Origin: Verrucomicrobia bacterium S94
GTDB lineage: Bacteria > Verrucomicrobiota > Kiritimatiellia > Kiritimatiellales > Pontiellaceae
Assembly (NCBI GenBank): GCA_004299845.1
Contig: CP036201.1
Coordinates: 2,914,001-2,978,000 of the forward strand
Direction of reading: 5' to 3'
DNA: 64,000 bases
In this document: in pieces, positions 1,475 through 43,590 of the stretch
How the letters are laid out: each line of letters opens with the position of its first letter
Numbering within the stretch: the stretch's first letter is position 1
Notes under the pieces: generated by a model
What the model saw: the letters and a program-made list of their open reading frames with translations, nothing else
The model's database searches: none
Told to the model about the DNA's origin: nothing
Position numbers and translations under genes: made by a program

Positions 1475-1483
1475 GGTCTCCAT

Positions 1484-1989
1484 CTCATTCTCTGATATTT
1501 TTTATTGGGCGATGCCCCTCGGACAGCGCCAACGGCGTGTAAGCGTTGTATGAATTCCCGAAAAGGGAATCTATCATATTCTGTTTGTTTTACGCTGAAA
1601 ACCGGCTTCTTCCTGTAACAGATCAGCGAACCCGGCATTAGATGATTTTTCGCATCATCCCCCTCATTGCAGCCCGGTTCCGACCCATAGTGTTGCTCTC
1701 GCTCTGGATTGTCTGTAATAGAAAACTCTCAATTTTCGGAAAACAATCCGCAGGTCATCTGTCAGTTCAACTTCACACAACTACGACCACATGTGCCGTC
1801 GAACAAACCGGGGACAAACGCCCCATGCGGGATATTTCGCCCCGTTTCCTCAGGCAGCAGCCGACCGGAAAAATCTTTATACCCGACCAAGCCGCATCAA
1901 AAAGATAACGCCCTAACCCCTATCAGTAGCGCCCGTTATACCAATTACCATATCCCTCCATCAACATCTTCCGGACCGTCCGCCTTCAC
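1484..1989. other. Intergenic region upstream of the sigma-54 promoter
   Basis: About 500 bases without a convincing gene. It holds a perfect inverted repeat at 1554-1570 (ATTCCC, loop GAAAA, GGGAAT) just upstream of the antiporter start, and otherwise nothing I can name. Enhancer sites for the -24/-12 promoter at 1990 would be expected here, but I see no clear copy of the block found upstream of the other modules. Confidence 0.5.
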
Positions 1990-2006
1990 GGGCATACTTG
2001 TTGCAT
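1990..2006 (+). promoter_or_regulatory. Sigma-54 (-24/-12) promoter for the small basic protein/HPF genes
   Basis: GGGCATACTTGTTGCAT has the invariant GG-N10-GC spacing (GG 1991-1992, GC 2003-2004) and the TTGCA form of the -12 element. The -24 element is GGGCAT where TGGCAC is the consensus. Transcription would begin near 2015, about 40 bases before the start at 2056. An NtrC-type activator is encoded 2 kb downstream. Confidence 0.75.
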
Positions 2007-2055
2007 TGGGGCACTCATCATTTGGATAGCATCAATAACACGAAAGGAGATGACT

Positions 2056-2166
2056 ATGTCCAAAAAGAAGCAGGGGCGTAAAACGCCGAAGCTGACGCTC
2101 AAGGAAAAGAAACGGCTCCAACGGGAGAAAAACGGAATTGTCGCCGGGAAGGCGGTCGCCCGTTAA
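2056..2166 (+). CDS. Very small lysine-rich protein (36 aa)
   Basis: Unrecognised 36-residue protein, starting MSKKKQGRKTPKL and very rich in Lys and Arg, so probably bound to nucleic acid or ribosome; that is inference from charge alone. A strong Shine-Dalgarno (AAAGGAG, 2043-2049) touches a first ATG at 2050, so the second ATG at 2056 has the right spacing and is chosen. It is the first gene after the sigma-54 promoter at 1990 and precedes the HPF-like gene by 155 bases. Co-expression with a hibernation factor suggests a stationary-phase or stress role. Confidence 0.6.
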   Translation: MSKKKQGRKTPKLTLKEKKRLQREKNGIVAGKAVAR

Positions 2167-2176
2167 CGGGCACAAC

Positions 2177-2280
2177 GTCCCTCCTTCCGCAGCCATGCGG
2201 CGGGAGGGACAGAGCCGTTTCAAGTTCAGACAGCACATCACGTGCTGAACGGGCTTAAAGAGGCGGGGAATTTCCCCGCC
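2177..2280 (+). other. Two strong hairpins between the small gene and the HPF-like gene
   Basis: The first pairs GTCCCTCC (2177-2184) with GGAGGGAC (2203-2210), with an inner CCGC/GCGG extension. The second pairs GGCGGGGAA with TTCCCCGCC (2262-2280). Neither is followed by a T-run, so they look more like RNA-stability or attenuation structures than simple terminators. Confidence 0.5.
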
Positions 2281-2321
2281 GTTGAAATCTCAGGATAACC
2301 CTTGGAAAAGGAGTTGATGTC

Positions 2322-2723
2322 ATGCACACAATCAGGCCAATCCGGTCCACCGCTTCTTACTTCAATCATCCGTCCTGTACGGGTATTCCCGTGACGGTCC
2401 GGTTCCGGCATATGCACGGGTCACAACACATGCTTACTGTCGTGGACCAATTGATGGAAAAACTTGATAAATACGCCCTGTCGAATGCGCACGTCACCGT
2501 GGTGGTCACCAAAACCCGACACCATGAAGATAAGGGTGCTTTCGAAGTGAAAATTCGGTTATCGGTTCCGGGCGAGCCGCTCTATGTGGCCCGAAGCCGG
2601 GAAACACTGGGAGCGCACGACGGGGTCTATCATGCACTGGCCGATTGTTTCGACCGAATCGAACGTCAGCTCGTCAAACGCCATGGTTACCGCATCGCCC
2701 GGCGCACGGCCCCGGCCCGATAA
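2322..2723 (+). CDS. hpf: HPF/RaiA-family ribosome hibernation factor (short form)
   Basis: Predicted to bind the decoding centre of the small ribosomal subunit and silence or dimerise ribosomes in starvation. The 133-residue protein has the S30AE pattern: a first strand at about residues 24-32 (PVTVRFRHM), a helix (VVDQLMEKLDKY), strands around VTVVVTK and FEVKIRLSVPG, and a second helix (YHALADCFDRIERQLVKR) ending in a basic tail. It lacks the dimerisation domain of long HPF. The start has a good AAAAGGAG (2307-2314). About 22 residues precede the first strand, more than in typical short HPF. The sigma-54 promoter at 1990 fits the common link between hpf and rpoN. Confidence 0.75.
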   Translation: MHTIRPIRSTASYFNHPSCTGIPVTVRFRHMHGSQHMLTVVDQLMEKLDKYALSNAHVTVVVTKTRHHEDKGAFEVKIRLSVPGEPLYVARSRETLGAHDGVYHALADCFDRIERQLVKRHGYRIARRTAPAR

Positions 2724-2958
2724 ATCGAGCCCGAAACACTCGGAAATAAAGACTGCACCCGCCCGCTCGACTTCTGCGCGCCGGCGGATGCAGAGTTACC
2801 GTGGTCAATGCCGAAGGATCAAACGGCCGACCAATCAACACTCACCCCACGGTTTCCGCACCATATGAAGACGTACATCAGCCCCGTGAAGGCATTCACC
2901 CCATCCAGCCAATCGAAAACAAATATTCATACCGGACAAAGAGCAGGAGCGGCAGACG

Positions 2959-4125
2959 GTGGACAAACCCATTCCCTATGATAGATTTTCCGGCATGCAT
3001 AATGAGGGCAAAGAACACATCGAACGGAAACTGCAGGAGCGGGTTAAAGAGCTCAGCTGCCTTTATGCCATTGCGCAGGTTTCAGGTAATCCGGCCGCTT
3101 CGCTGGAAACGATTCTGAAAAGGGTAGTCAAAGCACTGCCGGAAGCCTGGCAGGAACCGGAACGTGCCCATGCCCGGATTGAACTGGATGACCGCGTGTT
3201 CGGGACGCCGGACCTGCCGGTTGCCGGAAAAAGCCTGGCGGAACCGATTACCGTGCGCGGACAAAAACGAGGAACCATTTCCGTAGGGTATGAATCTGCG
3301 GATATCCCCGTACTGGCGGAAGAAAAAAAACTGCTGAAGGAGGTCGTCCGGCAGGTGGGGCTGATTATCGACCGGCGCGAAACCGCCGAAGAACAGCAGC
3401 GTCTGCATGCCAAACTCCACCATGCCGACCGCCTGGCCACTATCGGCAAACTGGCCGCCGGCGTTGCCCATGAACTGAACGAACCACTCGGAGGCATTCT
3501 GGGCTTTACACAACTGCTGGCCAAAACACCGGATCTTCCAACACAGGCCTGCCGGGATCTTGCAAAAATAGAGGCCGCTGCACTGCATGCCCGCGATACC
3601 ATCCGGCGGCTTATGACCTTTGCCCGGCAGACTCCTCCGCGCGATATTCGGCTTGATCTCAACCGGCTGATTAAAGAGAGCGAATCAATTTGGCAGCCGC
3701 GATGCAGCGCTTCGAATATTCAGATCGACTATGCCCTCGACCCGGATCTCCCCGATCTGGTGGCCGACGACGGTCAGCTGCGGCAGATGGTCACCAACCT
3801 GATCGTCAATGCGATTCAGGCCATGCCTGATGGAGGCAGACTGCATATTGCCACGGCCCGGGACGGGAAACAGCTGGAACTTACGGTTTCAGATACCGGA
3901 TGCGGTATCGAGCCGGATGTGCTGCCGAGTATTTTCGATCCTTTTTTTACGACGAAAGATATCGACGAAGGAACCGGCCTCGGTCTCTCGGTAGTGCACG
4001 GTATTGTTACCGGACACGGGGGAACGATCCATCTGACCAGCACTCCCGGTCAGGGCACTACCGCCACGGTCCGACTGCCGCTGTGCCGCCCATCGCACAC
4101 AGGAGCATATGATGAAAAAAAATAA
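2959..4125 (+). CDS. Soluble sensor histidine kinase (NtrB-like)
   Basis: A 388-residue kinase without membrane segments, so it senses a cytoplasmic signal. The order is an N-terminal coiled start, a divergent GAF-like domain (about 30-140), a HisKA domain with the H-box GVAHELNEPLGGI (phospho-accepting His171), then HATPase_c with N-box NLIVNAIQA, G1 DTGCGIE, an FDPFFTTK box and GTGLGLSV. It starts with GTG at 2959 behind AGGAGCGG. Its end overlaps the next gene, an NtrC-family regulator, by 17 bases, so the pair is cotranscribed and very probably cognate. The signal is unknown. The neighbours suggest energy, carbon or nitrogen starvation. Confidence 0.9.
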   Translation: MDKPIPYDRFSGMHNEGKEHIERKLQERVKELSCLYAIAQVSGNPAASLETILKRVVKALPEAWQEPERAHARIELDDRVFGTPDLPVAGKSLAEPITVRGQKRGTISVGYESADIPVLAEEKKLLKEVVRQVGLIIDRRETAEEQQRLHAKLHHADRLATIGKLAAGVAHELNEPLGGILGFTQLLAKTPDLPTQACRDLAKIEAAALHARDTIRRLMTFARQTPPRDIRLDLNRLIKESESIWQPRCSASNIQIDYALDPDLPDLVADDGQLRQMVTNLIVNAIQAMPDGGRLHIATARDGKQLELTVSDTGCGIEPDVLPSIFDPFFTTKDIDEGTGLGLSVVHGIVTGHGGTIHLTSTPGQGTTATVRLPLCRPSHTGAYDEKK

Positions 4126-5437
4126 ATCCGAGCGCATACTGGTTGTCGACGACTCCGCCGATACCCTTGAAGTCGTACGCCGCAATCTTTCCTCCGCCGG
4201 TTATGATGTCCACACGGTGCCCGGAGTTGCGGAAGCGGTCCGGGCTCTCGACGCGCTGGAGATCGACCTCGTGATTACGGACCTGCGCATGCCCAGAACC
4301 AGCGGGCTCGATCTGATCCGCCACGTACGGGAAAACTATGCCGATACCGAAATTATCATGATCACCGGCTACGCCTCCGTGCCCGGCGCGGTTGAAGCGA
4401 TGCAGACCGGTGCCTACACCTATCTGGCCAAACCGTTTACCGATGAGGAACTGCTTAAAGCGGTTACTCAGACCGTTGAACGCCTGCAGTTACGTCGTGC
4501 AGTTGATGAAACGGATGCCCCGCCGCCGGGCCAATGGGGCCTGCTGGGTCAATCCCGGGCCATGCAGAACGTTTATCACTCCATTGAAAAAGTGTCCGAC
4601 AGCTCGGCCACGGTGCTCATTCTGGGCGAAAGCGGAACCGGCAAGGAACTGGTCGCCCGGGCCATACACTACAACAGCCGCCGGGCAAACGCTCCGTTTA
4701 TTCCGGTCAACTGCGGCGGCATTCCGGACGGACTGCTTGAAAGCGAACTTTTCGGTGCCCGGAAAGGTGCCTATACCGGCGCACTTGAATCGCGCACCGG
4801 TTTTTTCCAGGCGGCGGAGGGCGGCACTATTTTTCTGGACGAAATCGCCGAACTGACCATGCCCATGCAGGCGGCTCTGCTACGCGTGCTGCAGGATAAA
4901 GTGGTCTACATGGTCGGCGATCGCGAACCGCGAAAAGTCGATGTGCGCGTAGTCGCAGCAACCAATAAGAAACTGGAATCGATGGTTGAAAAAGGGACAT
5001 TCCGGGAAGATCTGTACTATCGGATCAATGTCGTTCCTGTTGCCATTCCGCCCCTGCGGGAACGAAACGGCGACATTCCGCTGCTGGTCCGTCACTTTGC
5101 AGCGCGTTTTGCAGCGGAACTCGGCAAACCGGCCCCGGCCTTTGATGACCCTGTACTTGAAACCTTTGAAACCTATGCCTGGCCGGGCAATGTCCGCGAA
5201 CTTGAAAATGTAATCCAACGACTGGTTCTGATGGCAGAAGGTGAGCGTGTCACTGCCACACAGCTCCCGCAACTGATGCGCTTCAGCGCGAACCGGGCCG
5301 CGCCGCTGCGCTCACTGCATCAGGTTGAAGCGGAACATATCCGGACCGTGCTCGCCAGTGTCGGCGGCAACAAAACCCGTGCGGCCGAGATACTGGGCAT
5401 TGACCGTAAAACGCTGCAGAACAAACTGAAAACATAA
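4109..5437 (+). CDS. NtrC-family sigma-54-dependent response regulator
   Basis: Activator that, when phosphorylated, oligomerises and uses ATP to open sigma-54 promoters. The receiver has phospho-acceptor Asp58 (VITDLRMPR) and Lys108. The AAA+ domain has Walker A GESGTGKE (173-180), the sigma-54 contact loop GAYTGA (220-225; Tyr replaces the usual Phe, a known variant), Walker B TIFLDE and the R-finger region FREDLYYR. A Fis-type helix-turn-helix closes the protein (NKTRAAEILGIDRKTLQ). The start is ATG 4109 behind AGGAG at 4101. The three sigma-54 promoters directly downstream, and the one at 1990, are its obvious candidate targets. Confidence 0.93.
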   Translation: MMKKNKSERILVVDDSADTLEVVRRNLSSAGYDVHTVPGVAEAVRALDALEIDLVITDLRMPRTSGLDLIRHVRENYADTEIIMITGYASVPGAVEAMQTGAYTYLAKPFTDEELLKAVTQTVERLQLRRAVDETDAPPPGQWGLLGQSRAMQNVYHSIEKVSDSSATVLILGESGTGKELVARAIHYNSRRANAPFIPVNCGGIPDGLLESELFGARKGAYTGALESRTGFFQAAEGGTIFLDEIAELTMPMQAALLRVLQDKVVYMVGDREPRKVDVRVVAATNKKLESMVEKGTFREDLYYRINVVPVAIPPLRERNGDIPLLVRHFAARFAAELGKPAPAFDDPVLETFETYAWPGNVRELENVIQRLVLMAEGERVTATQLPQLMRFSANRAAPLRSLHQVEAEHIRTVLASVGGNKTRAAEILGIDRKTLQNKLKT

Positions 5438-5459
5438 CGCCTGCCAAACGGGGCGTTTC
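5434..5459 (+). terminator. Weak intrinsic terminator after the response regulator
   Basis: AACGCC and GGCGTT pair directly after the stop codon, followed by a short TTTCT. The stem is short and the T-run poor, so termination would be partial. Confidence 0.4.
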
Positions 5460-5493
5460 TACCCGCACGGGAAAATAGTCTGCACTTTCCGCC
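5456..5493 (+). promoter_or_regulatory. Candidate enhancer (UAS) of module 1
   Basis: A 38-base block containing TTTCTACCCG, a palindromic CCCG-N2-CGGG (5462-5471) and GTCTGCACTTTCCGCC. It matches 7008-7045 at 33 of 38 positions, and both copies lie about 150-165 bases upstream of a -24/-12 promoter, the usual place for an NtrC-family binding site. Confidence 0.55.
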
Positions 5494-5637
5494 GGACAAC
5501 TGCTCACCTTCCATGCAGCACGGACTCGCCATTTCAAAATATGCTTCCCCCGCAACCAGCGACCCCTGTTGTAATTGCGAATTGGTATGCGTCTGTTTCC
5601 TCCCTTTGATCCATATATTGCCGGCAGGTTCGTTGCG

Positions 5638-5654
5638 TTGGCACACTCGGTGCA
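5638..5654 (+). promoter_or_regulatory. Sigma-54 promoter of module 1
   Basis: TTGGCACACTCGGTGCA has a near-consensus -24 (TTGGCAC) with GG at 5640-5641 and GC at 5652-5653, exactly ten bases between. Start of transcription is expected near 5665, about 33 bases before the first gene of the module. Confidence 0.85.
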
Positions 5655-5697
5655 CTGGGTAATGCACAATCAATCTACACCACGGAGGGAACCCGGA

Positions 5698-6120
5698 ATG
5701 AAGGAACAGATCATCATTATGACCCGGCCGGACTACGCGCGCCTTACCCGGATTATTGAAGAGCAACATAACCGGATCCCGTCAACCGACAGGACAGCCT
5801 TCAAAAATCTGAAAAGGAAACTGGCATGCGCAAAACGGGTTGCCGAACACGACATTCCTCCGGATGTCGTAACCATGAATTCCGAGGTTCTGGTTTTCGA
5901 ACAGGAACTTGGCAGCGATAACAGCTTCACGCTTTCATGGCCGGATGAAGCCGGAATATCGCAAACTCGAATTAATGTGTTCACCCCACTGGGTACAGCT
6001 CTTCTCGGGAGCCGCGTCGGACAGGAAATCGAATGGCCGCTTCCTGACAGAATCTGCCGGCTGAGGGTCGAGGCGGTTTTATTCCAACCGGAAAATAATT
6101 CAGCATGCGAAACATGCTGA
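5698..6120 (+). CDS. Rnk/GreA-C-like protein, module 1
   Basis: A 140-residue protein of the Rnk (nucleoside diphosphate kinase regulator) type: an N-terminal helical segment (residues 8-50) and a GreA/GreB C-terminal FKBP-like domain, recognisable from the sequence NVFTPLGTALLGSRVGQEIEWPLP. Rnk-like proteins bind RNA polymerase near its secondary channel; the effect here is unknown. The start at 5698 follows GGAGGG at 5684-5689. It is the first gene after the module promoter and is followed 12 bases later by the Usp-like gene. Paralogues with the same partner occur at 7414 and 9608; all begin MKE with a following IIMT motif. Confidence 0.75.
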   Translation: MKEQIIIMTRPDYARLTRIIEEQHNRIPSTDRTAFKNLKRKLACAKRVAEHDIPPDVVTMNSEVLVFEQELGSDNSFTLSWPDEAGISQTRINVFTPLGTALLGSRVGQEIEWPLPDRICRLRVEAVLFQPENNSACETC

Positions 6121-6132
6121 AGAAGGTTCAGC

Positions 6133-6915
6133 ATGAACCAACATATCCAAAATGCCGGACCGGTGCTGCGCAGAGCCGAAGAAGAAGAAACGTTCGGGTA
6201 TGTGAATTTTCTTGCTTCCTGTAATAAAACGCTCCGGAATGTTTTTGTTCCGAGCTTCTCAGACCCAAAGGACGAAACCCAGGCAGTGAACGAAATCTAC
6301 CGCCTTGCCGGGGAAAAGAAGATTCATTTGATTATATCCGAGTGGCTGAACAATACCCGGGCTATGCAGGACCTGATCCACATCGCCCAAAAATATGAAT
6401 TACCGGCGGTTTTTGTGCGGGCGGAAAGTGCCCCGAAAATCGGCCGGATCGTGGTGTCTACGGGAGGCGGACCGAATCGGTATAATCAGATAAAATTGGC
6501 GCGCGAAATATCTGCCAGAAATGCGGTGCCCGTAACTATCCTGCATTGGACCGGAGCCCTTAATCGCGGCTCGGAAGGCACAATCGCCGAAAACCGGCGA
6601 TTTGAAAAAATGTGCCGGCGTTTACTCGGTAAACAAGAGGAATTTCTGCAATGCAACGGTCCCGATTTTGCAAGTGCCGTTGCCGGAACACTTCGTCCGG
6701 ATGACCTGCTGATCATCGGAGCAACCAGTCCATTCCGGCTAGTAACCGATTTTTACGGATCCCTGCCCGACCAACTGGCCAGGGCCATTCCGAACCCACT
6801 GATCATGTGGTCAAGCCCGCCGTTAAGTCTCCCCGGTCTGCGCCGTCATTTGTGGAGCCGGATCATTCAGCCACTGCGGATTCCCGGAGAAAGAAAAGCG
6901 CCATCCCCTCTCTGA
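6133..6915 (+). CDS. Universal-stress-protein-like protein, module 1 (no EIIA domain)
   Basis: A 260-residue soluble protein with two Usp-like halves. The first contains LIISEWLNNTRAMQDL; the second has RIVVSTGGGPN and a C-terminal DDLLIIGATSPFRL, the ATP-loop-like pattern of Usp proteins. The paralogue at 7850 is 408 residues and continues into a PTS EIIA domain; this copy stops at the equivalent of its residue ~255. A frame just past the stop reads RKKSAIPSLMNNLPAP, faintly like the linker of the paralogue, so the EIIA domain was probably lost by deletion. It shares one transcript with the Rnk-like gene. Usp membership is fairly clear; ligand and function are not. Confidence 0.7.
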   Translation: MNQHIQNAGPVLRRAEEEETFGYVNFLASCNKTLRNVFVPSFSDPKDETQAVNEIYRLAGEKKIHLIISEWLNNTRAMQDLIHIAQKYELPAVFVRAESAPKIGRIVVSTGGGPNRYNQIKLAREISARNAVPVTILHWTGALNRGSEGTIAENRRFEKMCRRLLGKQEEFLQCNGPDFASAVAGTLRPDDLLIIGATSPFRLVTDFYGSLPDQLARAIPNPLIMWSSPPLSLPGLRRHLWSRIIQPLRIPGERKAPSPL

Positions 6916-6998
6916 TGAACAACCTTCCGGCCCCACACAAAACCGGCTCTCTCGAAAACCCCCGCTCTCCGGGGAAGGATTTCCTGCTATAAAAAAAC

Positions 6999-7019
6999 GA
7001 CGGGTAATTTCTACCCGTC
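6999..7019. other. Perfect inverted repeat overlapping the module 2 enhancer
   Basis: GACGGGTA (6999-7006) and TACCCGTC (7012-7019) pair perfectly. A run of seven A precedes it, so on the minus strand it would resemble an intrinsic terminator. On the plus strand it separates module 1 from module 2. Confidence 0.5.
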
Positions 7020-7045
7020 CGGGGCAATTGTCTGCACTTTCCGCC
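7008..7045 (+). promoter_or_regulatory. Candidate enhancer (UAS) of module 2
   Basis: Second copy of the block at 5456-5493, with TTTCTACCCG, CCCG-N2-CGGG (7014-7023) and GTCTGCACTTTCCGCC. It lies about 155 bases upstream of the -24 element at 7181. Confidence 0.55.
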
Positions 7046-7178
7046 CCCACATCCACGCAAGCCCGCCACGCCGTTTTAAATATTTTAAATTCACAATCAT
7101 CTAACGGCCTAGAGAATACTGGAATTCCGCCCTCCCGCATGCCTTCCCCTCCCACCGGATGCCGGCAGTTTTACTGCG

Positions 7179-7196
7179 TTGGCACACCCGGTGCAT
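7179..7196 (+). promoter_or_regulatory. Sigma-54 promoter of module 2
   Basis: TTGGCACACCCGGTGCAT: GG 7181-7182, GC 7193-7194, ten bases between, nearly identical to the module 1 promoter. Transcription would start near 7206, 26 bases before the leader ORF. Confidence 0.87.
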
Positions 7197-7231
7197 TAGG
7201 GTAGTCAACCTAACAGCAAGGAGGTCGAAAC

Positions 7232-7417
7232 ATGGCTTTTCATTTTATGTCAATACTAGGGCAACGAACCAGAGAACGGCATCAGCTTTTTGCTGAACCA
7301 CACCTGATCGGCACACCCACACCCATTCCCCGGCTTTTCCCGATCCTGTGGCGCATGATCCGCATACACCGGCAGAAGCAACTGAGTCACAACAACACGA
7401 ACGGAGTACTGAAATGA
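7232..7417 (+). CDS. Short leader protein of module 2 (61 aa)
   Basis: Unrecognised 61-residue protein with a strong AAGGAGG (7218-7224). Its stop codon overlaps the start of the Rnk-like gene (ATGA at 7414-7417), so translation is probably coupled. It shares TPIPRLFP-x-L-x-R and surrounding positions with the N-terminal extension of module 3 (9410-9607); 11 of 15 residues match around this motif, and the two upstream parts can also be aligned (RERHQLFAE with QERKKLLAD). Conservation between two diverged modules supports a real protein rather than an accidental frame. Module 1 has no equivalent. Function unknown. Confidence 0.55.
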   Translation: MAFHFMSILGQRTRERHQLFAEPHLIGTPTPIPRLFPILWRMIRIHRQKQLSHNNTNGVLK

Positions 7418-7836
7418 AAGAACAAGCAATCATTATGACCTGGCCGGACCACGCGCGGCTCACCAAACTGCTCGAAGAGCATCGTATCCAGAATCCTCGT
7501 GCAGACCGCAAAGCCTTTGAAAAACTGGGTCGGGAACTGGCTCGAGCGCAACTGATGACCGCACAGGACATTCCCGCAAATATCATTACCATGAATTCCC
7601 AGGTACAGGTTTTCGATTTGGAACTCGGCGATGAATACACCTTCATACTCTCCTGGCCAGGTGAAGCTGATATATCCGAAAACCGCATCAACGTACTCGC
7701 CCCGTTGGGCATGGCCCTGCTCGGCAGCCGCGCTGGTCAGGAAATCGAATGGCCGCTTCCGGAGGGAAAATGCCGGTTGCGAATCGATAAAATCCTGTTT
7801 CAACCGGAAAACAATACAACATGCGAGACATGCTGA
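7414..7836 (+). CDS. Rnk/GreA-C-like protein, module 2
   Basis: A 140-residue paralogue of the protein at 5698, with the same helical N-terminus and FKBP-like GreA C-terminal domain (NVLAPLGMALLGSRAGQEIE). The ATG at 7414 overlaps the leader stop, so it is probably translated by coupling. The Usp-EIIA gene starts 13 bases after it behind AAGGAG. The protein ends ENNTTCETC; the module 1 copy ends ENNSACETC, a cysteine-pair tail that the module 3 copy lacks. Confidence 0.75.
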   Translation: MKEQAIIMTWPDHARLTKLLEEHRIQNPRADRKAFEKLGRELARAQLMTAQDIPANIITMNSQVQVFDLELGDEYTFILSWPGEADISENRINVLAPLGMALLGSRAGQEIEWPLPEGKCRLRIDKILFQPENNTTCETC

Positions 7837-7849
7837 AGGAGATGTAAAA

Positions 7850-9076
7850 ATGAATCACCAACCGATCCGGATGGCCGTACTGGCTGCATGCGGAACTGAA
7901 GAGGAAATGTTCGGGTATGCGGAACTCTTCGCACCCCGTAATGATGTCCGCCACCACCATGTGTTTATTCCGGGATTCGCCCTTCCGAAAGACGAAGAAC
8001 GGGCGATCACTGAAACCCGGCATCTCGCCGGAAACAGAAAACTCGATCTGATTATATCCGAGTGGCTGAACAACACCCGGGCTATGCAGGACCTGCTACA
8101 GCTCGCCCAGAAACGCAGGTTCCCGGTGGTTTTCGTGCGGACTGCACATGAACCGCAGATTAGCCGAATTGTGGTTGCAACGGGAGGCGGCCCAAACGTC
8201 TATGAGCAGATGTGGCTGGCGCGACAGACGGCAGCCAGGCTCAATGTTCCCATGGAGATCCTGCACTGGACTCCGGCATTGGATTCCGCCCCGCGCGATG
8301 GTCCCGAAGACACCGATCCGCTTGAAAAAATGTGCCTGCGCCTATTCGGCATGCAGGTGAATACAATTCACTGCTGCGGCCCTGATTTTACAGGCACGGT
8401 GGCCGATACGCTGCGTCCGGACGATCTGCTGGTGATAGGGGCTCCAAGTCCGTTACGGATGGTGGCCGACTTTTCAGACTCCCTGCCCGATCAACTGGCC
8501 AGGACGGTTCCGAATCCGATGATCCTGTTGTCGACCCCTTCGCCGAATCACACCAACCTGCGCCGTCTCCTGTGGGGCCGGCTGATCAAACCCCGGTTGC
8601 ATTCCCGCCCAAAAAAAGAAGTGTTGGAAGGCCTGATAGACAACCTTATACGCCATAACCAACTGCCGCCGGGAAGTAGAAAGGATATGCTCGAACGCGC
8701 ACTGCAACGCGAGCAGGCGTTCTCCACGGCTGTGGATTGCGAAACAGCCTTCCCTCACATTAAACTGCCGGGTTTCTTTGGCGTAGCAGGTACATTGGGG
8801 ATTTTCCCCGACGGCATCGACTTCGGCAGCGAAGACGATACGCCGACACGCTTTGTATACCTGCTCGTTACCCCCGAAGGATTTTGCGACGAATATCTTG
8901 CCATCCTCTCGAAAATATCCAGGCGAATGCTTGATCCTGCAGTCCGCAAAGCCCTGCTGATCAGCAAAACCGCAGCTGAGGCCGTTGAGATTCTTGAGCC
9001 GCACCAGGATCTTCCGCTCGAGTGCACTTTGTATAAACCGATCACTCACCGGCAACAGAAAGCCGCAGCGCTATAA
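7850..9076 (+). CDS. Usp-like protein fused to PTS EIIA-Ntr-type domain
   Basis: A 408-residue two-part protein. Residues 1-230 are Usp-like (LIISEWLNNTRAM, RIVVATGGGPN, DDLLVIGAPSPLR). Residues about 258-384 match the PTS EIIA type-2 (PtsN/EIIA-Ntr) fold: LIRHNQLPPGSRKDMLERAL, then ETAFPHIKLP with the phosphorylatable His303, and KISRRMLDPAVRKALL near the end. EIIA-Ntr proteins are phosphorylated by a PTS-Ntr chain and regulate nitrogen, potassium and sigma-54-linked functions. A Usp-EIIA fusion would let phosphorylation state and a nucleotide signal meet in one protein; that is inference. The start at 7850 has AAGGAG at 7836-7841. The reading frame is intact. Confidence 0.75.
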   Translation: MNHQPIRMAVLAACGTEEEMFGYAELFAPRNDVRHHHVFIPGFALPKDEERAITETRHLAGNRKLDLIISEWLNNTRAMQDLLQLAQKRRFPVVFVRTAHEPQISRIVVATGGGPNVYEQMWLARQTAARLNVPMEILHWTPALDSAPRDGPEDTDPLEKMCLRLFGMQVNTIHCCGPDFTGTVADTLRPDDLLVIGAPSPLRMVADFSDSLPDQLARTVPNPMILLSTPSPNHTNLRRLLWGRLIKPRLHSRPKKEVLEGLIDNLIRHNQLPPGSRKDMLERALQREQAFSTAVDCETAFPHIKLPGFFGVAGTLGIFPDGIDFGSEDDTPTRFVYLLVTPEGFCDEYLAILSKISRRMLDPAVRKALLISKTAAEAVEILEPHQDLPLECTLYKPITHRQQKAAAL

Positions 9077-9356
9077 CGCTCTGCCGCAGCAGTCCCGGAC
9101 TATGGAGAATGTTTATCGTTTCATTGAGCATGATTTCCGGTGGACCTGCCGTGGTGCGGGTACCGGGGAATATTTCCCCGGATGCGGAATCAGACCGCAC
9201 TCTTTCCTACAGCGCACCCGGTATCTGCCGGATGCAGCTATGGCATATACAAAAATTTCCTTCACTTCATAATTCATCGCTTCCGTTGGTGATATACCTA
9301 TTTTCCCGTCATTAATATTGCTCCGTTCCTCTCGAAAACCATCCGGTTTCCCCCCG
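9077..9356. other. Intergenic region with palindrome and candidate module 3 enhancer
   Basis: Holds a perfect inverted repeat CCGGGGAA-TAT-TTCCCCGG at 9163-9181, followed by GACCGCACTCTTTCC (9193-9207). The latter resembles GTCTGCACTTTCC of the module 1 and 2 blocks and sits about 160 bases upstream of the -24 element at 9359, the same geometry. No gene is seen. Confidence 0.4.
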
Positions 9357-9374
9357 TTGGCATATCTGGTGCAT
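9357..9374 (+). promoter_or_regulatory. Sigma-54 promoter of module 3
   Basis: TTGGCATATCTGGTGCAT: GG 9359-9360, GC 9371-9372, ten bases between. Transcription would start near 9384, 26 bases before the TTG at 9410, the same distance as in module 2. Confidence 0.83.
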
Positions 9375-9409
9375 AGAGAACCCGACCTCGATAGCAAGGA
9401 GATTGGAAT

Positions 9410-10033
9410 TTGAGAACAAAACGGACTGCGGGTCTGCTGAAGCTGGTGCAGGAACGCAAGAAGCTTCTGGCTGATACCTATATGGTCGTCAGCAGCTCAG
9501 CCACCCCTATTCCCCGGCTTTTCCCGACGTTGCGGCGTATTATGCGGAAAGCGCCGGGAAATAAACGAGAATTACCACTGAACCCAAGAAAGAAGGAATA
9601 CAGAAATATGAAAGAATCATCCATTATCATGACCTGGCCCGACCACGCTCATCTTACTGAACTGGTCGAGAAGGAACGCAGTGCTGCTTCCCCCGGTACC
9701 GATCACGACGCCATAGAAAAACTGGCCAGGGAACTGGCCAGGGCTCAACTGGTGGCCGGATGCGATATCCCTCCTGATATTGTCACCATGAACTCCCAGG
9801 TCAGAGTTTCTGATCTGGATCTGGGCGATGAATACACCTTCACGCTCTCCTGGCCCGACCGGGCAAATGTCTCGGAAAACCGGATCAATGTACTTGCCCC
9901 GCTCGGAATGGCGTTACTGGGCAGTCGCGTTGGACAGGATATTAAGTGGCCGCTGCCCCAGGGAACCTGTCACCTGCATGTGGAGGAGATCCTGTTTCAG
10001 CCGGAAAACAATATGGTCAGAAGCGCAGGCTGA
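9410..10033 (+). CDS. Leader sequence fused in frame to Rnk/GreA-C-like protein, module 3
   Basis: One open frame codes for a 66-residue leader-like part (with TPIPRLFPTLRRIMR, as in the module 2 leader) followed directly by a Rnk-like protein beginning at Met67 (9608). The upstream start is TTG at 9410 with AAGGAG at 9396-9401; the internal ATG at 9608 has its own AAGGAA. Either a 207-residue fusion, a 141-residue protein from 9608, or both are made. The Rnk part has the usual GreA C-terminal domain (NVLAPLGMALLGSRVGQDI). Compared with module 2, loss of the leader stop has joined the two proteins, which argues that they work together. Confidence 0.65.
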   Translation: MRTKRTAGLLKLVQERKKLLADTYMVVSSSATPIPRLFPTLRRIMRKAPGNKRELPLNPRKKEYRNMKESSIIMTWPDHAHLTELVEKERSAASPGTDHDAIEKLARELARAQLVAGCDIPPDIVTMNSQVRVSDLDLGDEYTFTLSWPDRANVSENRINVLAPLGMALLGSRVGQDIKWPLPQGTCHLHVEEILFQPENNMVRSAG

Positions 10034-10036
10034 AAT

Positions 10037-11265
10037 ATGTCGGGAATAACATCAAAGCAGACCCATACAGCCGTTCTGGCAACGCCCGGAATGGAAGAAA
10101 AAATGCTCCGGTATGCACGCCTGCTGAGCGACAACCGGAACGCTGATCTTCACCACATTCCTATCCCGGCGATTGCCGTTGCTCAGGACGAAGCCGTCGC
10201 CGTTGCCGAAGTCCGGAACCTCTTCTCCTCCACGAAGCTGAATCTGCTCCTTTCCGAATGGATGAAAAGCCCCCGGGCCATGCAGAATATGATTCAACTC
10301 ACCCGCAGACGCGGCGTAACCGGCATTTTTTTCCGCACAGGAAACGGACGTAAAATCGGCAGGATCGTGGTGGCAGTCGGCGGAGGCCCGAATCTCTATG
10401 AGCAGCTGTGGCTGGCTAATGTAGTGGCCAAACACCACCGGCTTCCGGTTGCGGTCCTCAACTGGGCCGACGGAATCAGAAATACATTCAGCACATCCAC
10501 GCCCGCAATAGCTGACCTCGAAAAAATAAGCGTACAGCAGCTCGGTATGGAGATCGAAATCCTGGAATACTCAGGCCCTTCGCTGGTCGATGCCGTACTC
10601 AAACATCTCCGCCCCGACGATCTCCTGGTTATCGGGGCCCCAGTCCGTTGCGGCTGGCCACCGATTTTACCGGATCACTGCCCGACCAGCTTGAAAAACA
10701 GACGGATCATCCACTGATCATGCTGGCCCGCGCCCCGCAGGAACAAAACAGTCTGCACCGCCTGTTCTGGGGACAGCTGGCCTGTCCGGACTTAAAGGTG
10801 CGAAACAAGGAAGAGGCCCTGGAAAAGCTGGTGACAAACCTGATCCGCCATAATCAGCTTCCGCCCGGAAAGAAAAGATCCATTCTGGAACGCGCCCTCA
10901 AACGCGAACAGATTTCATCCACTGCGGTGGATTGTGAAACCGCCTTTCCCCATGTTGCGCTGCCGGGATTCTACGGCGTGGCCGGAAGTATGGCCATCTG
11001 TCCGGACGGGGTTGATTTCGGGAGTTCCGGCGGCAAGCCGTCCCGCTTCCTTTTCCTGTTGATTACGCCGGAAGGCTATTGCAGTGAATACCTGGCCATC
11101 CTTTCAAAAATATCAAAACGGATGATCGATCCGGCTGTCCGTGCAGCATTGCTGAAGGCGTCATCGCAGCAGGATATCCTCAACATTCTGGAACCTGCTC
11201 CGGATGAACGGTTCGCAATCAACGCATCGCCCCGACAGCGACAGAAACAGCATGCAAAGCCATGA
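10037..11265 (+). pseudogene. Usp-EIIA fusion, module 3, with one-base frameshift
   Basis: Paralogue of the gene at 7850. The first frame (10037-10717) covers the Usp-like part to DDLLVIGAP, then goes out of frame. The second frame resumes at once with SPLRLATDFTGSLPDQLE and runs through an intact EIIA-type domain (ETAFPHVALPG with the active His) to 11265. Adding one C to the run at 10638-10641 restores the whole protein of about 410 residues. Both halves remain well conserved and free of other damage, so this may be a sequencing error in a C run instead of a true pseudogene. Confidence 0.75.
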
Positions 11266-11566
11266 TTTTCCCCATCACCGAATACGACGCTGTTCCCGGC
11301 GGTAAACCCGCTATTCTGGAAGGAATCTTCCGCAAACGTTAATACCCCGGAAATTACGCGCCCTTTGCTCCGCAAAGAGGCCCGTCCTACAACCATGTAG
11401 GACGCGGTTTCCGCGGGGGCCGCGTTTTCAAGATCGCCAAGAGGAAGACGCCGATCAGCCGGGGCGCGCCCTTTTTTCGTAAAGAAGCCCGTTCTGCACC
11501 TTGTGTACACTCCCCGGGTGCAGATCACATTTCCCACATAAAAACCGCATTCACCCGACACAAACG
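11266..11566. other. Intergenic region with hairpins
   Basis: Contains GTCCTACA-ACCA-TGTAGGAC (11384-11403), a perfect 8-bp stem, then CGCGG/CCGCG pairs, and GGGCGCGCCC followed by six T (about 11463-11478), which could end transcription on the plus strand. No gene is seen. It separates the plus-strand stress region from the minus-strand pdxH. Confidence 0.45.
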
Positions 11567-12205
11567 TCAGGGAGCCAGCCGTTTAATCGTCCATCCATCG
11601 CCGGAACGGGTGTATTCGAAACGGTCATGCAGCCGATGGGCACCACCCTGCCAGAATTCAATGATCCTCGGTTGTACCCGGTAGCCGCCCCAGAAATCAG
11701 GTAATGGAATTTTTCCCTGACTGAATTTTTCCTTCATGGCATTAAACTGCTTCATCAGCATCTGCCGCGACGAAATCGGCCGGCTCTGTGCCGATGCCCA
11801 CGCCGCCAGCTGACTCTCGGCCGGACGGCTTGAAAAATATTTCAATGATTCCGTCAGACTGACCCGCTCAGCCGTGCCGCAGATCTTTACCTGACGTTCC
11901 AGCATATGCCAGGGAAAATGCAGACTGACCTTTGCATTATCCGCCATATCCTGTGCTTTACGGCTTTCATAGTTGGTATAAAAAACAAAGCCCCGCTCAT
12001 CCAGATGCTTTAGTAATACAATCCGCTGGCTCGGCTGTCCCTCCGCATCCACCGTAGCCAGAACCATGGCCGTGGGATCGGTTATCTCCGCCTTTACCGC
12101 CTGATCAAGCCAGCGTTCAAACTGCCGGACCGGATCTTCCGACAAATCCTTCCGATGCAGTCCCTCCTTCAGATATTCCCTGCGCATGGATTCCAGATCA
12201 ATCAT
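11567..12205 (-). CDS. pdxH: Pyridoxamine/pyridoxine 5'-phosphate oxidase
   Basis: FMN enzyme that makes pyridoxal 5'-phosphate from the pyridoxine or pyridoxamine phosphates with O2. The 212-residue protein is close to E. coli PdxH (218). Visible family signatures are [10 protein letters not shown] at the N-terminus, [19 protein letters not shown] and SRKAQD for FMN and substrate binding, and the C-terminal [13 protein letters not shown]. The start at 12205 is preceded by AAAGGAACG; an open frame extends further upstream but overlaps the neighbouring gene and is not conserved in type. It lies 16 bases after the ferredoxin gene and is probably cotranscribed with it. Confidence 0.93.
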
Positions 12206-12221
12206 GTTCGTTCCTTTCAAA

Positions 12222-13271
12222 TCATCGGGCGCGACCTTCTGAAACCTGCCCACCATGGGCATGGTTGAAGCGCTCAAGCAGGGGAATATAATGCCGGTAC
12301 CGTTCCAACGGAATATTGTTCTGCCAGAATCCGCCCAGGCGGGCAGCCCCGATACTGCCGAAAAAGAAAACCACGATACACACCGCATACATCCAGGGCC
12401 GGATTACGAAACGATGTCCCCGGGTACTCAACTGCAGCGTCTTTTTGACCGGGCAAACCGCCACGCACCGCAGACAGGCATGACACTCATCGGACCGGAC
12501 CGCCCCCGCACAGTGCACCCTGATATTCGCCGGGCACACTTTCGTGCATTTCCGGCAGTCAATACAGCTCCCGGCATCACGCCGGATTTTCCAGGGACTC
12601 AGCCAACTGGTCATGCCGAGCAGGGCGCCATACGGGCAGAGGTAGCGGCACCATACATTACGGACCAGCAACGACAGCAGTGTGAGCACCGAAAGCGTTA
12701 CAATCGTGGGAGTTGATGGATCGAGAAAAAAGACCAGCATCTTCAGATCGGCGATCTGATTATACGGACTGTAGATAAAGGCTTTCAGTGCTGAACCCGG
12801 CATCTTCAGCAGAATGATCCAGCAGAAAAAACCGAGCAGCAGATATTTGATACTGCGCAACAGATAATCGAACCACCGCCGCACCACCAGCGGCTGCCGG
12901 AACAGCAGTTTCTGCACGGCGTTCAGCATTTCATTAATCACTCCAACCGGACAGACCCAGCTGCAGAAACCCCGCTTCAGCAGCAGGGCGGTCAGCAGAA
13001 TCACAAGAAACAGCACCAGTCCCGCCGGATGAATCCGGTTGAAATCACCGGACACGATCCAGAGCTTCAGGCTCATCAGCGAACTGATCGGCAGAAAGGC
13101 CTCCACCCCCGGCGGCCGTTCAACCACCTGTTCCGCCCCAGCTGCCAACTGCTGATAAAACAGATAAAACCGGAACCCGATCCAGATTGTGGATGCCGCA
13201 AAAATTCCCTGCACCAGCCTCCGCAGCAGCATGGCATCACTGCATTTTTTCAGAATTTCACCACGGTTCAT
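12222..13271 (-). CDS. NapH/CcoG-like membrane polyferredoxin
   Basis: A 349-residue inner-membrane iron-sulfur protein with about five hydrophobic segments. It has two CxxxCP motifs at the membrane ([16 protein letters not shown]) and two 4Fe-4S ferredoxin clusters ([12 protein letters not shown] and [12 protein letters not shown]). This is the architecture of NapH, NosR C-terminal and CcoG/RdxA-type proteins, which pass electrons from the quinone pool or help copper-protein assembly. No nap or nos genes are nearby. The neighbour at 13456 is a Met/Cys-rich outer membrane protein, so a copper-related electron-transfer role is possible. Start Met at 13271 (MNRGEIL) with AAAGGG; a longer frame to 13346 exists. 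Confidence 0.75.
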
Positions 13272-13455
13272 TCGAAGCCCTTTCGCCAGTGCGTTAAAAG
13301 AGCCGTTGTAATCGAATTTAAAACCGCCCGCCTTGATCCGGATCAAGAAACCGCAGAACCCCGGAACAGCTATTCACCCTCCATATTTCCCGTTCGGAAT
13401 CTTTTTCACTATACACGAAAAACGGATCGATTGCCCGTTTCAGATGGAGGAGCCG

Positions 13456-14442
13456 CTAAAACGCAACCTGCAACCCGCCGATCACCATCCATTGGGTTTC
13501 CAGCTGCGGGCCGTCGAGCTCCTGATACACCGGTGCACCGCCTTCGAGCGCCAGACGGACCGTGCTCCACCGGTAATCAATCCCCGCCAGCAGATCCACC
13601 TGCATGCCCGCACGCAGATCCGGGTCGGCCAGCGGGGTCATCATCGGATTCAGCTCCGGATCCGCGCCATCAATATTTTCCACCCGCGAACCTTTCAGAC
13701 GCAGCGAAACAGCAGACGATTTACACAGATCGCGAGAACCCCAGATATTCAAGCCGTAACGATTGCCCAACGTATAGTCGTTATCATTTTCATTCAGGTA
13801 AAATGTACCGTTCACCTGCCCGCCCCAACCCCAGCCGTTAGCCAGACCGGTGTAGGTGATACCCGGGATCAGACCGAACGAACCGGAACCCGGCTGCATT
13901 GAATACGGAAGACGGCTTCCGTCATTTTCCTCATCAATCGAACCCGTCGGAAAACCGACCGCCAGATTGACCAGCAGCTGTTGGACCGATGACGACCAAA
14001 GGCGATACGTACCCGAAAGCTTCAGGTCTCCGAATCCTTCCGAGTTCATTTCCATGGGCATGCTCATAGCCCCCATTTCCATATCCATGTCATTGATGAG
14101 ATACGGCAGCATCAGACCAATGGTCAGATCATTCATCGGCGTATACATCGCCCCGAACATATGCATCTGCATGTCCATGCTTTTCGGACGCATCATATAG
14201 CCCGAAACATCGTCATCGGTTCCATCCATGCTCATGAACATGTAACGATACGACGTCATCCAGGCCTCTTTATGATGCACATGATCGCCCATCACTCCAA
14301 TCGGTGCACGCGGTTCGTGATTGCAGGCACACACCTCCGCACATCCGCAGTCCTCGCCGCATGCCGCACAGTCTTCGGCAGAGGCATCCGATACTACGAC
14401 AAACAACATAACCGACAAACCGGCCAACCTATAACGTATCAT
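13456..14442 (-). CDS. Met-, Cys- and His-rich outer-membrane protein, probable metal handling
   Basis: A 328-residue exported protein. A signal peptide (to about residue 22, DASAE) is followed by a cysteine cluster C-AAC-GEDCGC-AEVCAC and then HVHHKE. The middle contains many methionines (MRPKSMDMQMHMFGAM, DMDMEMGAMSMPMEM), a pattern typical of Cu(I)/Ag(I) binding sites. The rest alternates in beta-barrel fashion and ends in an aromatic C-terminus (GGLQVAF) typical of outer-membrane barrels. It resembles the MetA-pathway/transporter-like barrels annotated near copper genes. The start has GGAGAGAAG upstream. Metal specificity is inference from residue composition. Confidence 0.65.
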   Translation of the reverse strand: MIRYRLAGLSVMLFVVVSDASAEDCAACGEDCGCAEVCACNHEPRAPIGVMGDHVHHKEAWMTSYRYMFMSMDGTDDDVSGYMMRPKSMDMQMHMFGAMYTPMNDLTIGLMLPYLINDMDMEMGAMSMPMEMNSEGFGDLKLSGTYRLWSSSVQQLLVNLAVGFPTGSIDEENDGSRLPYSMQPGSGSFGLIPGITYTGLANGWGWGGQVNGTFYLNENDNDYTLGNRYGLNIWGSRDLCKSSAVSLRLKGSRVENIDGADPELNPMMTPLADPDLRAGMQVDLLAGIDYRWSTVRLALEGGAPVYQELDGPQLETQWMVIGGLQVAF

Positions 14443-14710
14443 TCTTCTCTCCTGGATATGAAAAGTCCCACAGGTACGAAAACCGGCCCACTCTGTCGAA
14501 TTTCAATAAGCAACATTATCGGGCCGTTCCAACCGGCGGAATGCCGCAGACTGTACACAAACGCCTGCGCCCGGCTTTGAATAATCGTAGATCCGAGTGA
14601 AAATATTCTGAATGAGTCATATTGACTCTTATCAGTCCTTCCCATGAGTCAAAATGTATCGCAATTTGCTGCATCTCCGTAAAAATCCCTGTATTTTTAC
14701 TTTTTCAGAA
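14443..14710. promoter_or_regulatory. Regulatory region with inverted repeat upstream of the GH130 operon
   Basis: Contains GAGTCA-TAT-TGACTC (14614-14628) and a further half-site TGAGTCA at 14645-14651, about 65-100 bases upstream of the -24/-12 promoter at 14713. This is the position expected for an enhancer-binding protein. It differs from the block found upstream of the Rnk-Usp modules. Confidence 0.5.
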
Positions 14711-14728
14711 CTGGTACACCCGATGCTT
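14711..14728 (+). promoter_or_regulatory. Sigma-54 promoter of the GH130 operon
   Basis: CTGGTACACCCGATGCTT: GG 14713-14714 and GC 14725-14726, with ten bases between. The -24 is TGGTAC (one change from TGGCAC). The start codon at 14834 is about 97 bases after the expected transcription start. Confidence 0.68.
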
Positions 14729-14833
14729 GAGGCGATTTTGCAGGCAAAATACCCACGGGATACCCGCAATTTTAACGGCCGCATTTCCCGCCTGTCATTA
14801 TGTAAATAATCCTGATCAAGAAAGGGTTTTGAT

Positions 14834-16288
14834 ATGGCACAGCCCACTAGAAAAGCACTGTTACTGCATCCGGATGTGAACCGGGTTTTTTTCAGACCCT
14901 TCATGCCGAGTTCGGAAAACCGAACCATCAAAATTATCGCCCGGGTCATGTCACTCTCCGAGAGCCGGGTCAAAGCGGAATGCGCCCGGGTTCTGGCCGA
15001 TTTTGAAAAACGTCACAGTAATCTGCGCGCATTTCTGCTCGAGCGCTTTGATGACATCAAAGAGCATCTCATCGCCGATCAGCCGATGTCTGAGGCCCGC
15101 AAACTGCTGCTCGGGGCCTATTTCACGCAGGAATATGCGCTGGAGGCCGCCGCCCTTTTCAACCCGTCGATTGTGCCGCACCCCGATCAATCCGGCACGA
15201 AAGAAGGCGAACTCCGCTTCATTCTCAGCCTGCGCTCCACCGGCGAGGGTCACATCTCCTCCATCACGTTCCGCACCGGAAGTGTCGATGCTTCCGGCTC
15301 CATTCAGATCGATCCGACCGAACGCTTTGTAACCGCCGCCCGGCCGGAGCCGAACCCAACCTATGAAAAGGAACTTTTCCTGCGCAAACTCGGCGAACTG
15401 GGACTTCAGTCCCCCTGGGTTAAAGAAGTCACCGCCGAACTGAAGCCGGAATTCACCCTGCTTCAACTTGAAGAACAGCTTCAGGCCCACCTCTCCCGTA
15501 ACCGCTTTCTCGAATCCAGCCAGAAGGAGGCCGCCACTGCCATCCGTGCACTGGCCCACGCCAACTACGAACTGCGCTTCAATCCGGATCAGCCCATCAG
15601 CCAGCGCGCCATCTTCCCCTCCACTCCGGCGGAAAAAAAAGGATTGGAAGACGCCCGTTTCGTCGCCTTCCGGGACGGAGGAAAAACCACCTATTATGCC
15701 ACCTATACCGCCTACGACGGTCATATGCTGCTTCCGCAGATTCTACAGACCGATGATTTTGTGAACTTCCGGATCAGCACCCTGAACGGTTCCCAGATCC
15801 AGAATAAAGGCATGGCACTGTTCCCGCGCAAAATCAACGGCCGCTACGCTATGATTTCACGGCAGGATAACGAAAACCTGTTCCTCATGTATTCGGATCA
15901 CCCCCATTTCTGGTACGAAAAACAGGCGCTCCTCCGCCCTTCATTCCCCTGGGAATTCATGCAGATCGGAAACTGCGGATCGCCCATTGAAACCGAACAG
16001 GGCTGGTTGCTGATCACCCACGGCGTCGGCCCGATGCGCCGTTACACTATCGGGGCCATTCTGCTCGATCTCGACGATCCGTCGAAAGTCATCGGACGCC
16101 TTAAAACCCCGCTGCTTTCACCCAATGAACAGGAGCGCGAGGGCTATGTCCCCAACGTCGTCTACAGTTGCGGCGCACTGATTCACAGCGGGCGCCTTAT
16201 TCTGCCCTATGCGGTCAGCGATCGCTCCACTACGTTCGCCACGTATGAACTTGATCAGATTTTTGAATCCATGAATACGAATCGTTAA
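14834..16288 (+). CDS. GH130-family glycoside phosphorylase-like protein (long N-terminal part)
   Basis: A 484-residue protein. The C-terminal two-thirds (from about residue 250) has the five-bladed propeller pattern of GH130 beta-mannoside phosphorylases: GLEDARFVAFRDG, the ALFPRKINGRYAMISRQDNEN block, IGNCGSPIETEQGWLLITHG. The first 250 residues are helical and charged and are seen in one class of GH130 proteins. GH130 enzymes split or form beta-mannosidic bonds with phosphate. It begins the three-gene operon and is separated by 17 bases from the glycosyltransferase. A second, shorter GH130 lies at its end. The start at 14834 follows AAGAAAGGG. Confidence 0.82.
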   Translation: MAQPTRKALLLHPDVNRVFFRPFMPSSENRTIKIIARVMSLSESRVKAECARVLADFEKRHSNLRAFLLERFDDIKEHLIADQPMSEARKLLLGAYFTQEYALEAAALFNPSIVPHPDQSGTKEGELRFILSLRSTGEGHISSITFRTGSVDASGSIQIDPTERFVTAARPEPNPTYEKELFLRKLGELGLQSPWVKEVTAELKPEFTLLQLEEQLQAHLSRNRFLESSQKEAATAIRALAHANYELRFNPDQPISQRAIFPSTPAEKKGLEDARFVAFRDGGKTTYYATYTAYDGHMLLPQILQTDDFVNFRISTLNGSQIQNKGMALFPRKINGRYAMISRQDNENLFLMYSDHPHFWYEKQALLRPSFPWEFMQIGNCGSPIETEQGWLLITHGVGPMRRYTIGAILLDLDDPSKVIGRLKTPLLSPNEQEREGYVPNVVYSCGALIHSGRLILPYAVSDRSTTFATYELDQIFESMNTNR

Positions 16289-43572: not shown

Positions 43573-43590
43573 TTGCACCAGGTATGCCAA
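43573..43590 (-). promoter_or_regulatory. Sigma-54 promoter of amt-glnK
   Basis: Read on the minus strand: TTGGCATACCTGGTGCAA. GG lies at 43588-43587 and GC at 43576-43575, with ten bases between. Transcription would start near 43563, about 55 bases before the amt start codon. It is closely similar to the module 3 promoter at 9357. Confidence 0.85.

Follow-up and report, generated by a model that had tools for sequence, protein, structure and literature searches.

A small basic protein gene paired with rnk in predicted sigma-54-type operons of Verrucomicrobia bacterium S94 and its relatives

A 64,000-nucleotide stretch of Verrucomicrobia bacterium S94 (Kiritimatiellales; contig CP036201.1, positions 2,914,001 to 2,978,000, hereafter the window), which lies within a single-contig genome of 4.1 Mb, carries three modules encoding an Rnk-like protein and a universal stress protein (USP)-like protein, all downstream of genes for a histidine kinase and an NtrC-type response regulator (Table 1). 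The subject of this work is a short reading frame, here called the leader or small protein gene, that precedes rnk in two of the modules. In module 2 it runs for 61 residues from an ATG at 7232 to a TGA at 7415–7417, and its stop overlaps the rnk start codon at 7414 as ATGA. In module 3, a version of 66 residues extends from a TTG at 9410 to 9607 and is open without a stop into the rnk ATG at 9608. Both arrangements, the homology of the two leaders and the lack of one in module 1 had been described in an initial annotation of this DNA, and they hold with the correction that the module 3 frame starts with TTG and not ATG. The motif TPIPRLFPxL is common to the module 2 leader and the module 3 extension, and a search of the S94 genome with the module 3 leader (expectation value, E, up to 10) returned nothing beyond itself and, at E=0.007, the module 2 leader. 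The module 3 TTG is preceded by an AAGGAG ribosome site and lies 37 nucleotides (nt) past the −12 element of the promoter, a distance identical to that of the module 2 ATG. For module 1, a tblastn search of positions 5431–5710 with the module 2 leader gave short chance pieces (best E=0.7).

Table 1. Features of the rnk cluster, in window coordinates.
Feature	Position	Strand	Basis
Histidine kinase	2959..4125	+	Pfam HisKA, HATPase_c
NtrC-type sigma-54 response regulator	4109..5437	+	Pfam Sigma54_activat, Response_reg, HTH_8
Module 1 sigma-54-type promoter (predicted)	5638..5654	+	Pattern search of window and genome
Module 1 Rnk-like protein, without small protein upstream	5698..6120	+	Pfam, tblastn
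Module 1 USP-like protein lacking an EIIA domain	6133..6915	+	Pfam scan, tblastn
Module 2 sigma-54-type −24/−12 promoter (predicted)	7179..7195	+	TTGGCACACCCGGTGCA
Module 2 leader, encoding the small basic protein (61 aa)	7232..7417	+	Open reading frame, homology, codon test
Module 2 Rnk-like protein, 140 aa	7414..7836	+	NCBIfam PRK05753.1; Pfam GreA_GreB, Rnk_N
Module 2 tandem USP-like + PTS EIIA domain protein, 408 aa	7850..9076	+	Pfam PTS_EIIA_2; Foldseek
Module 3 sigma-54-type promoter (predicted)	9357..9373	+	Pattern search of window and genome
Module 3 small protein copy, TTG start, stop-less, in frame with rnk	9410..9607	+	
Module 3 Rnk-like protein (141 aa) with an ATG and ribosome site of its own	9608..10033	+	
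Module 3 USP-EIIA gene, frameshift near 10640	10037..11265	+	tblastn with module 2 protein

A search of 28 genomes of the genus found close Rnk relatives in G001, G019 and G020 (one, two and two, respectively; the labels are ours), together with a distant relative in G011 and, in G004, a match that is weak and partial, and a small basic open reading frame (ORF) lies upstream of all five close foreign rnk genes. A 387-genome search of the phylum added two copies in G107, a member of another family, so that nine copies of the small protein gene are known, two in the window genome and seven in four related genomes. In all nine, rnk lies directly 3′ of the small protein gene. The sequence IP[RL]L[FI]P is retained in eight of the nine, and a USP-type gene is found downstream in eight, being complete with the EIIA domain in six, without it in G020a and frameshifted in module 3. 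A profile built from the nine copies scores modules 2 and 3 at E=1.0e-26 and 2.2e-22, although both are rows of the profile and not independent of it. Searched across the 43 genomes of the order, it recovers its own nine rows at E=8.8e-22 or better, with the next match at 0.011. An orthologue of the NtrC-type regulator (74–80% identical, E up to 1e-120) occurs in the same 5 of these 43 genomes as the small protein, and the chance of identical genome sets would be ∼1e-6 for independent genomes, but these are not independent.

Profile searches of 28, 387, 43 and 345 genomes (overlapping sets; scoring covered at most 16 candidates per genome in the 387-genome search and at most 18 in the 345-genome search) gave no further convincing leader copy outside the nine-copy loci. 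The best outsider (G334, E 1.9e-4 in the 345-genome search) was rejected, its frame looking non-coding and its contig differing from that of its Rnk gene; seven other new matches in the 387-genome search fell at E 4.5e-4 to 0.003. A pattern search upstream of 25 distant Rnk loci of the phylum (600 nt in 23 loci, ∼290 nt in L040 and L045, where the contig ends) found the motif at none of them. A sigma-54-like element is present at one of these 25 loci (L044).

In a protein-guided codon alignment of the nine copies (62 codons), the ratio of nonsynonymous (dN) to synonymous (dS) change, omega, was 0.49 and omega=1 was rejected (twice the log-likelihood difference, 2dlnL, of 28.7, p=8e-8). With module 3 and the G020b copy removed, omega was 0.385 (2dlnL 34.4). 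A 17-column core, chosen after viewing the alignment, gave 0.27 (2dlnL 24.2) and the columns outside it 0.58 (2dlnL 10.5, p=0.001); the corresponding value for the nine Rnk genes, module 1 omitted, was 0.12. Protein-guided alignment is somewhat biased toward finding constraint; in a DNA-only alignment, codon position 3 was the most changed (0.60 versus 0.51 and 0.47). The nine copies together with the codon test rule out a chance ORF, and the leader is a real small gene that is constrained at the protein level.

The nine small proteins comprise 57–67 residues, have isoelectric points (pI) of 11.6–12.0 and net charges of +7 to +15, reach a best helical moment of 0.48–0.72, and each start has a ribosome site. 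Despite this conservation the protein escapes the family databases. No Pfam family was found for the module 2 and 3 proteins at E up to 0.1, and among six other copies scanned at E up to 1 (G020b being left out) five had no match and one had a sub-cut-off match of 12.1 bits. NCBIfam gave none for modules 2 and 3 at 0.1 or for three other copies at 1. An RMF-type profile was not among the Pfam scan results for the eight copies scanned. Two joint leader and Rnk alignments (A4 and A6), which misplaced the leader core onto Rnk sequence, were excluded from modelling. AlphaFold2 modelled the module 3 fusion with confidence only in its Rnk part, the block-mean predicted local distance difference test score (pLDDT) of the leader part being 46–58.

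The partner is firmly assigned in module 2. The protein encoded there scores 114.6 bits against NCBIfam PRK05753.1 (cut-off 109) and both Pfam GreA_GreB and Rnk_N are above cut-off, which places it in the Rnk family. For module 1 GreA_GreB is above cut-off and Rnk_N is weak (14.4 against 23.7), while the module 3 Rnk is 66% identical to that of module 2 and the model of its fusion matches the E. coli Rnk structure 3bmb at E 2.4e-12. All three window proteins are acidic, with pI values of 4.9–5.4. A recent tandem duplication of modules 1–3 is not supported: the module 2 Rnk groups with the Rnk of other species at 93/95, a value below the star of the tree tool, and the tree gives modules 1 and 3 no resolved position. 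The third gene of module 2 encodes a PTS_EIIA_2 domain according to Pfam. The model of this USP-EIIA protein is poor (pLDDT 50), and its best Foldseek matches are tandem universal stress proteins (E 9.2e-5), so the USP identity of the front half is only a lead. In module 3 the same protein is encoded as residues 9–199 of the module 2 sequence in one frame and 198–387 in another (tblastn); the frameshift near 10640 may be genuine or an error of sequencing.

The seven foreign copies are all separated from rnk by a stop codon, at distances of 16–41 nt, compared with −4 nt in module 2 and a missing stop in module 3, the one fusion among nine. Three of the seven are in frame with rnk, which is close to chance. 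A separate ORF is the usual state and probably the ancestral one, and the module 3 fusion is most simply read as derived. The module 3 leader may still work, because its core is kept, and unfused Rnk may also be produced from this module, since the rnk gene retains its own ATG with AAGGA ∼10 nt upstream. It could also be that the fusion, as distinct from the small protein itself, is functionally meaningless, the product of a duplicate in decay or of an error in sequencing it. We rate this at somewhat below an even chance, and it would be compatible with our preferred explanation: the next gene is frameshifted, the N-terminus has diverged and the start is TTG, but neither the core of the leader nor the reading frame of Rnk is broken and the module 3 Rnk differs from the eight other leader-bearing copies by a dN of 0.21–0.29, with dS at 1.5–3.0 or saturated.

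The initial annotation took the fusion as a sign that leader and Rnk interact. As evidence of binding the fusion is weak, and we consider it doubtful that the small protein is dedicated to binding Rnk and that the fusion records their contact. Rnk is the sole neighbour kept in all nine loci, including that of G107b, whose 19 kb stretch yielded no relative of USP-EIIA, the two proteins carry opposite charges, and the core persists in the fused copy; but there is a single fusion, it begins with TTG, keeps the internal rnk start and adjoins a frameshifted gene, the module 1 Rnk has no such partner, and no confident docking was obtained, though only four alignment rows covered the leader. What does survive of the earlier interpretation is a functional link, which the fixed neighbourhood suggests because a real, constrained protein has rnk as its neighbour in nine of nine copies.

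Control of rnk translation by the leader, the other suggestion made from the fusion, is unlikely, and a regulatory upstream ORF steering rnk by coupling or an RNA switch strikes us as quite improbable. Such a role would suit the location 5′ of rnk and the ATGA overlap of module 2. The overlap is present in only one of nine copies, however, the spacing to rnk varies between −4 and +41 nt, a separate ribosome site serves rnk, the G107b copy is internal to its operon, module 1 is leaderless and selection acts on the amino acids. In modules 2 and 3, none of the four stretches folded improved on its shuffled versions (z 0.73, 1.31, −0.32 and 0.17), and window positions 1–16000 hold no Rfam match. 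The leader as an RNA element was rejected on these two results, and the hallmarks of a regulatory leader peptide or RNA switch were not found, structure having been looked at in modules 2 and 3 only.

Sigma-54 recognizes the consensus TGGCAY-N5-TTGC. A pattern of this type, allowing up to two mismatches, matches the window four times, each time exactly, where 0.13 matches would be expected; with up to one mismatch there are five in the 4.1 Mb genome (four exact) against none for a control pattern read backwards. The element, as TGGCAY-N5-KTGC, lies 31–41 nt upstream of eight of the nine small protein copies, and for seven of these eight it ends in GTGC rather than TTGC. The ninth, G107b, is operon-internal, behind a divergent rnk that bears the element and shows no leader of its own; the order there (L080, 9206–10364, − strand) is sigma-54-type site, divergent rnk, small protein, second rnk. 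The element, its plausible distance and its occurrence at sigma-54-type genes together support predicted sigma-54 promoters. As judged by eye, the non-module site in the window (43574–43590, − strand) precedes an amtB-like ammonium transporter gene and a glnK/PII-like gene, and a nifH-like gene follows a second non-module site elsewhere in the genome, which has one mismatch (L103); the genes were recognized from translations. We infer that the operon units may be under the control of the adjoining NtrC-type kinase/regulator pair.

Further genes accompany the cluster. A gene at 2056–2166 (+ strand) encodes a very basic protein of 36 residues, 50 nt downstream of a sigma-54-like site with one mismatch (∼1991–2005). 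Its distribution among the 43 genomes is that of the leader and the regulator, with the same five carrying it (six copies including that of the window, 74–100% identical), and no curated family scored above cut-off. This gene strengthens the view of a regulon that uses several tiny basic proteins. Between this gene and the kinase lies an S30AE/HPF-type ribosome hibernation gene (2322–2723, + strand). An S30AE gene is present in four of nine scanned stretches (the window, G001, the second G019 stretch L076, and G020), or four of the five genomes, and is Pfam-confirmed in three. Flanking the cluster are a gene for a membrane protein of iron-sulphur type and one for a presumed outer-membrane protein (12222–14442, − strand), and the same two appear, judging translations by eye, in G001 (L074, 4091–7899).

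We propose that the small protein gene is the usual first gene of a sigma-54-driven operon encoding the small protein, Rnk and usually a USP-type protein, and that this gene, which overlaps rnk briefly in module 2, would have lost its stop in module 3 so as to read into rnk and been lost from module 1. A signal received by the kinase would switch the operons on, acidic Rnk would, like its E. coli counterpart, bind RNA polymerase, and the cationic protein, which has an amphipathic IPRLFPTLWR stretch, would work alongside it on the same machinery, be it the polymerase, nucleic acid or the ribosome. The whole may be part of a growth-arrest or starvation programme, as suggested by the presence together of a kinase/NtrC pair, sigma-54-type promoters, Rnk, USP-EIIA and S30AE. 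Confidence is high in the gene-level part of this explanation, namely the gene, its constraint, co-occurrence, promoter-like sites and rnk association. The working hypothesis for the induction, target and role of the small protein is tentative, while the explanation as a whole, a predicted cationic accessory protein co-induced with Rnk, is in our estimate about evenly balanced. A bolder version, which we think improbable, is an undescribed sigma-54-switched arrest system in which Rnk, USP-EIIA, often a hibernation factor and a matched set of tiny cationic proteins, namely the Rnk partner of 57–67 residues and its companion of 36, would rest RNA polymerase and ribosomes in response to one two-component signal, the small protein being a licensing subunit of Rnk that was fused to it once.

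Several observations weigh against this proposal. The module 1 unit exists without the small protein, the PRLFP core is lost in G020b, and the expression and product of the small protein are predicted from sequence. The protein fits no curated family in the Pfam and NCBIfam scans, its best solved-structure profile match, a LysR-type regulator at E=0.01, was taken as chance, and AlphaFold2 gave neither a confident leader fold nor reliable docking, 4 of 21 alignment rows covering the leader. The five genomes are related to one another and small in number, so their co-occurrence represents few independent events, and many of the remaining 38 of the 43 genomes of the order are incomplete drafts. 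The module 2/module 3 pair alone has dN 0.84 and dS 0.99, the G019b/G020b pair 0.49 and 0.49, and module 3/G020b 1.11 and 1.20; constraint in the module 3 and G020b copies may be weak, because several pairs with them have dN close to dS. The two-copy substitution test put forward in the initial annotation would for that reason read as no constraint and is by itself uninformative, whereas the nine copies show constraint.

The charge and helical moment would also fit a cationic amphipathic peptide that acts on the membrane or envelope and merely shares the operon. This we judge very unlikely, since the core contains a proline and the pairing is strictly with a relative of a cytosolic protein that binds RNA polymerase. 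A 2015 review (PMC4598747) describes E. coli Rnk as binding RNA polymerase in competition with the Gre factors and DksA, and its role as unknown at that time. A co-inherited small protein and a probably inducible operon would offer Rnk a physiological setting and a candidate partner. Among the titles listed from the open-licence literature none describes this locus, and a search there found nothing pairing Rnk with Kiritimatiellota. The small protein shows that a conserved protein of ∼60 residues can slip past family databases.

Three known systems invite comparison. The first is the regulator of nucleoside diphosphate kinase, Rnk, of E. coli (3bmb), to which the module 2 neighbour is related by passing the PRK05753.1 cut-off and the module 3 fusion by its model; the system differs in the leader motif, which the pattern search saw upstream of none of the 25 more distant Rnk loci in the phylum. 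RMF and Sra are small basic proteins of stationary-phase ribosomes, and the small protein resembles them in size, in strong positive charge and, in four of five genomes, in the nearby presence of an S30AE gene. It differs in that eight of nine copies were scanned with no Pfam match above cut-off, and a role at the ribosome is predicted at most. Finally, the third gene of the unit, with PTS_EIIA_2 and a USP-like front half (from a weak model), recalls PTS EIIA-Ntr (PtsN) and the tandem UspE-type proteins; unlike these, its EIIA and USP parts are joined in one protein and encoded behind Rnk.

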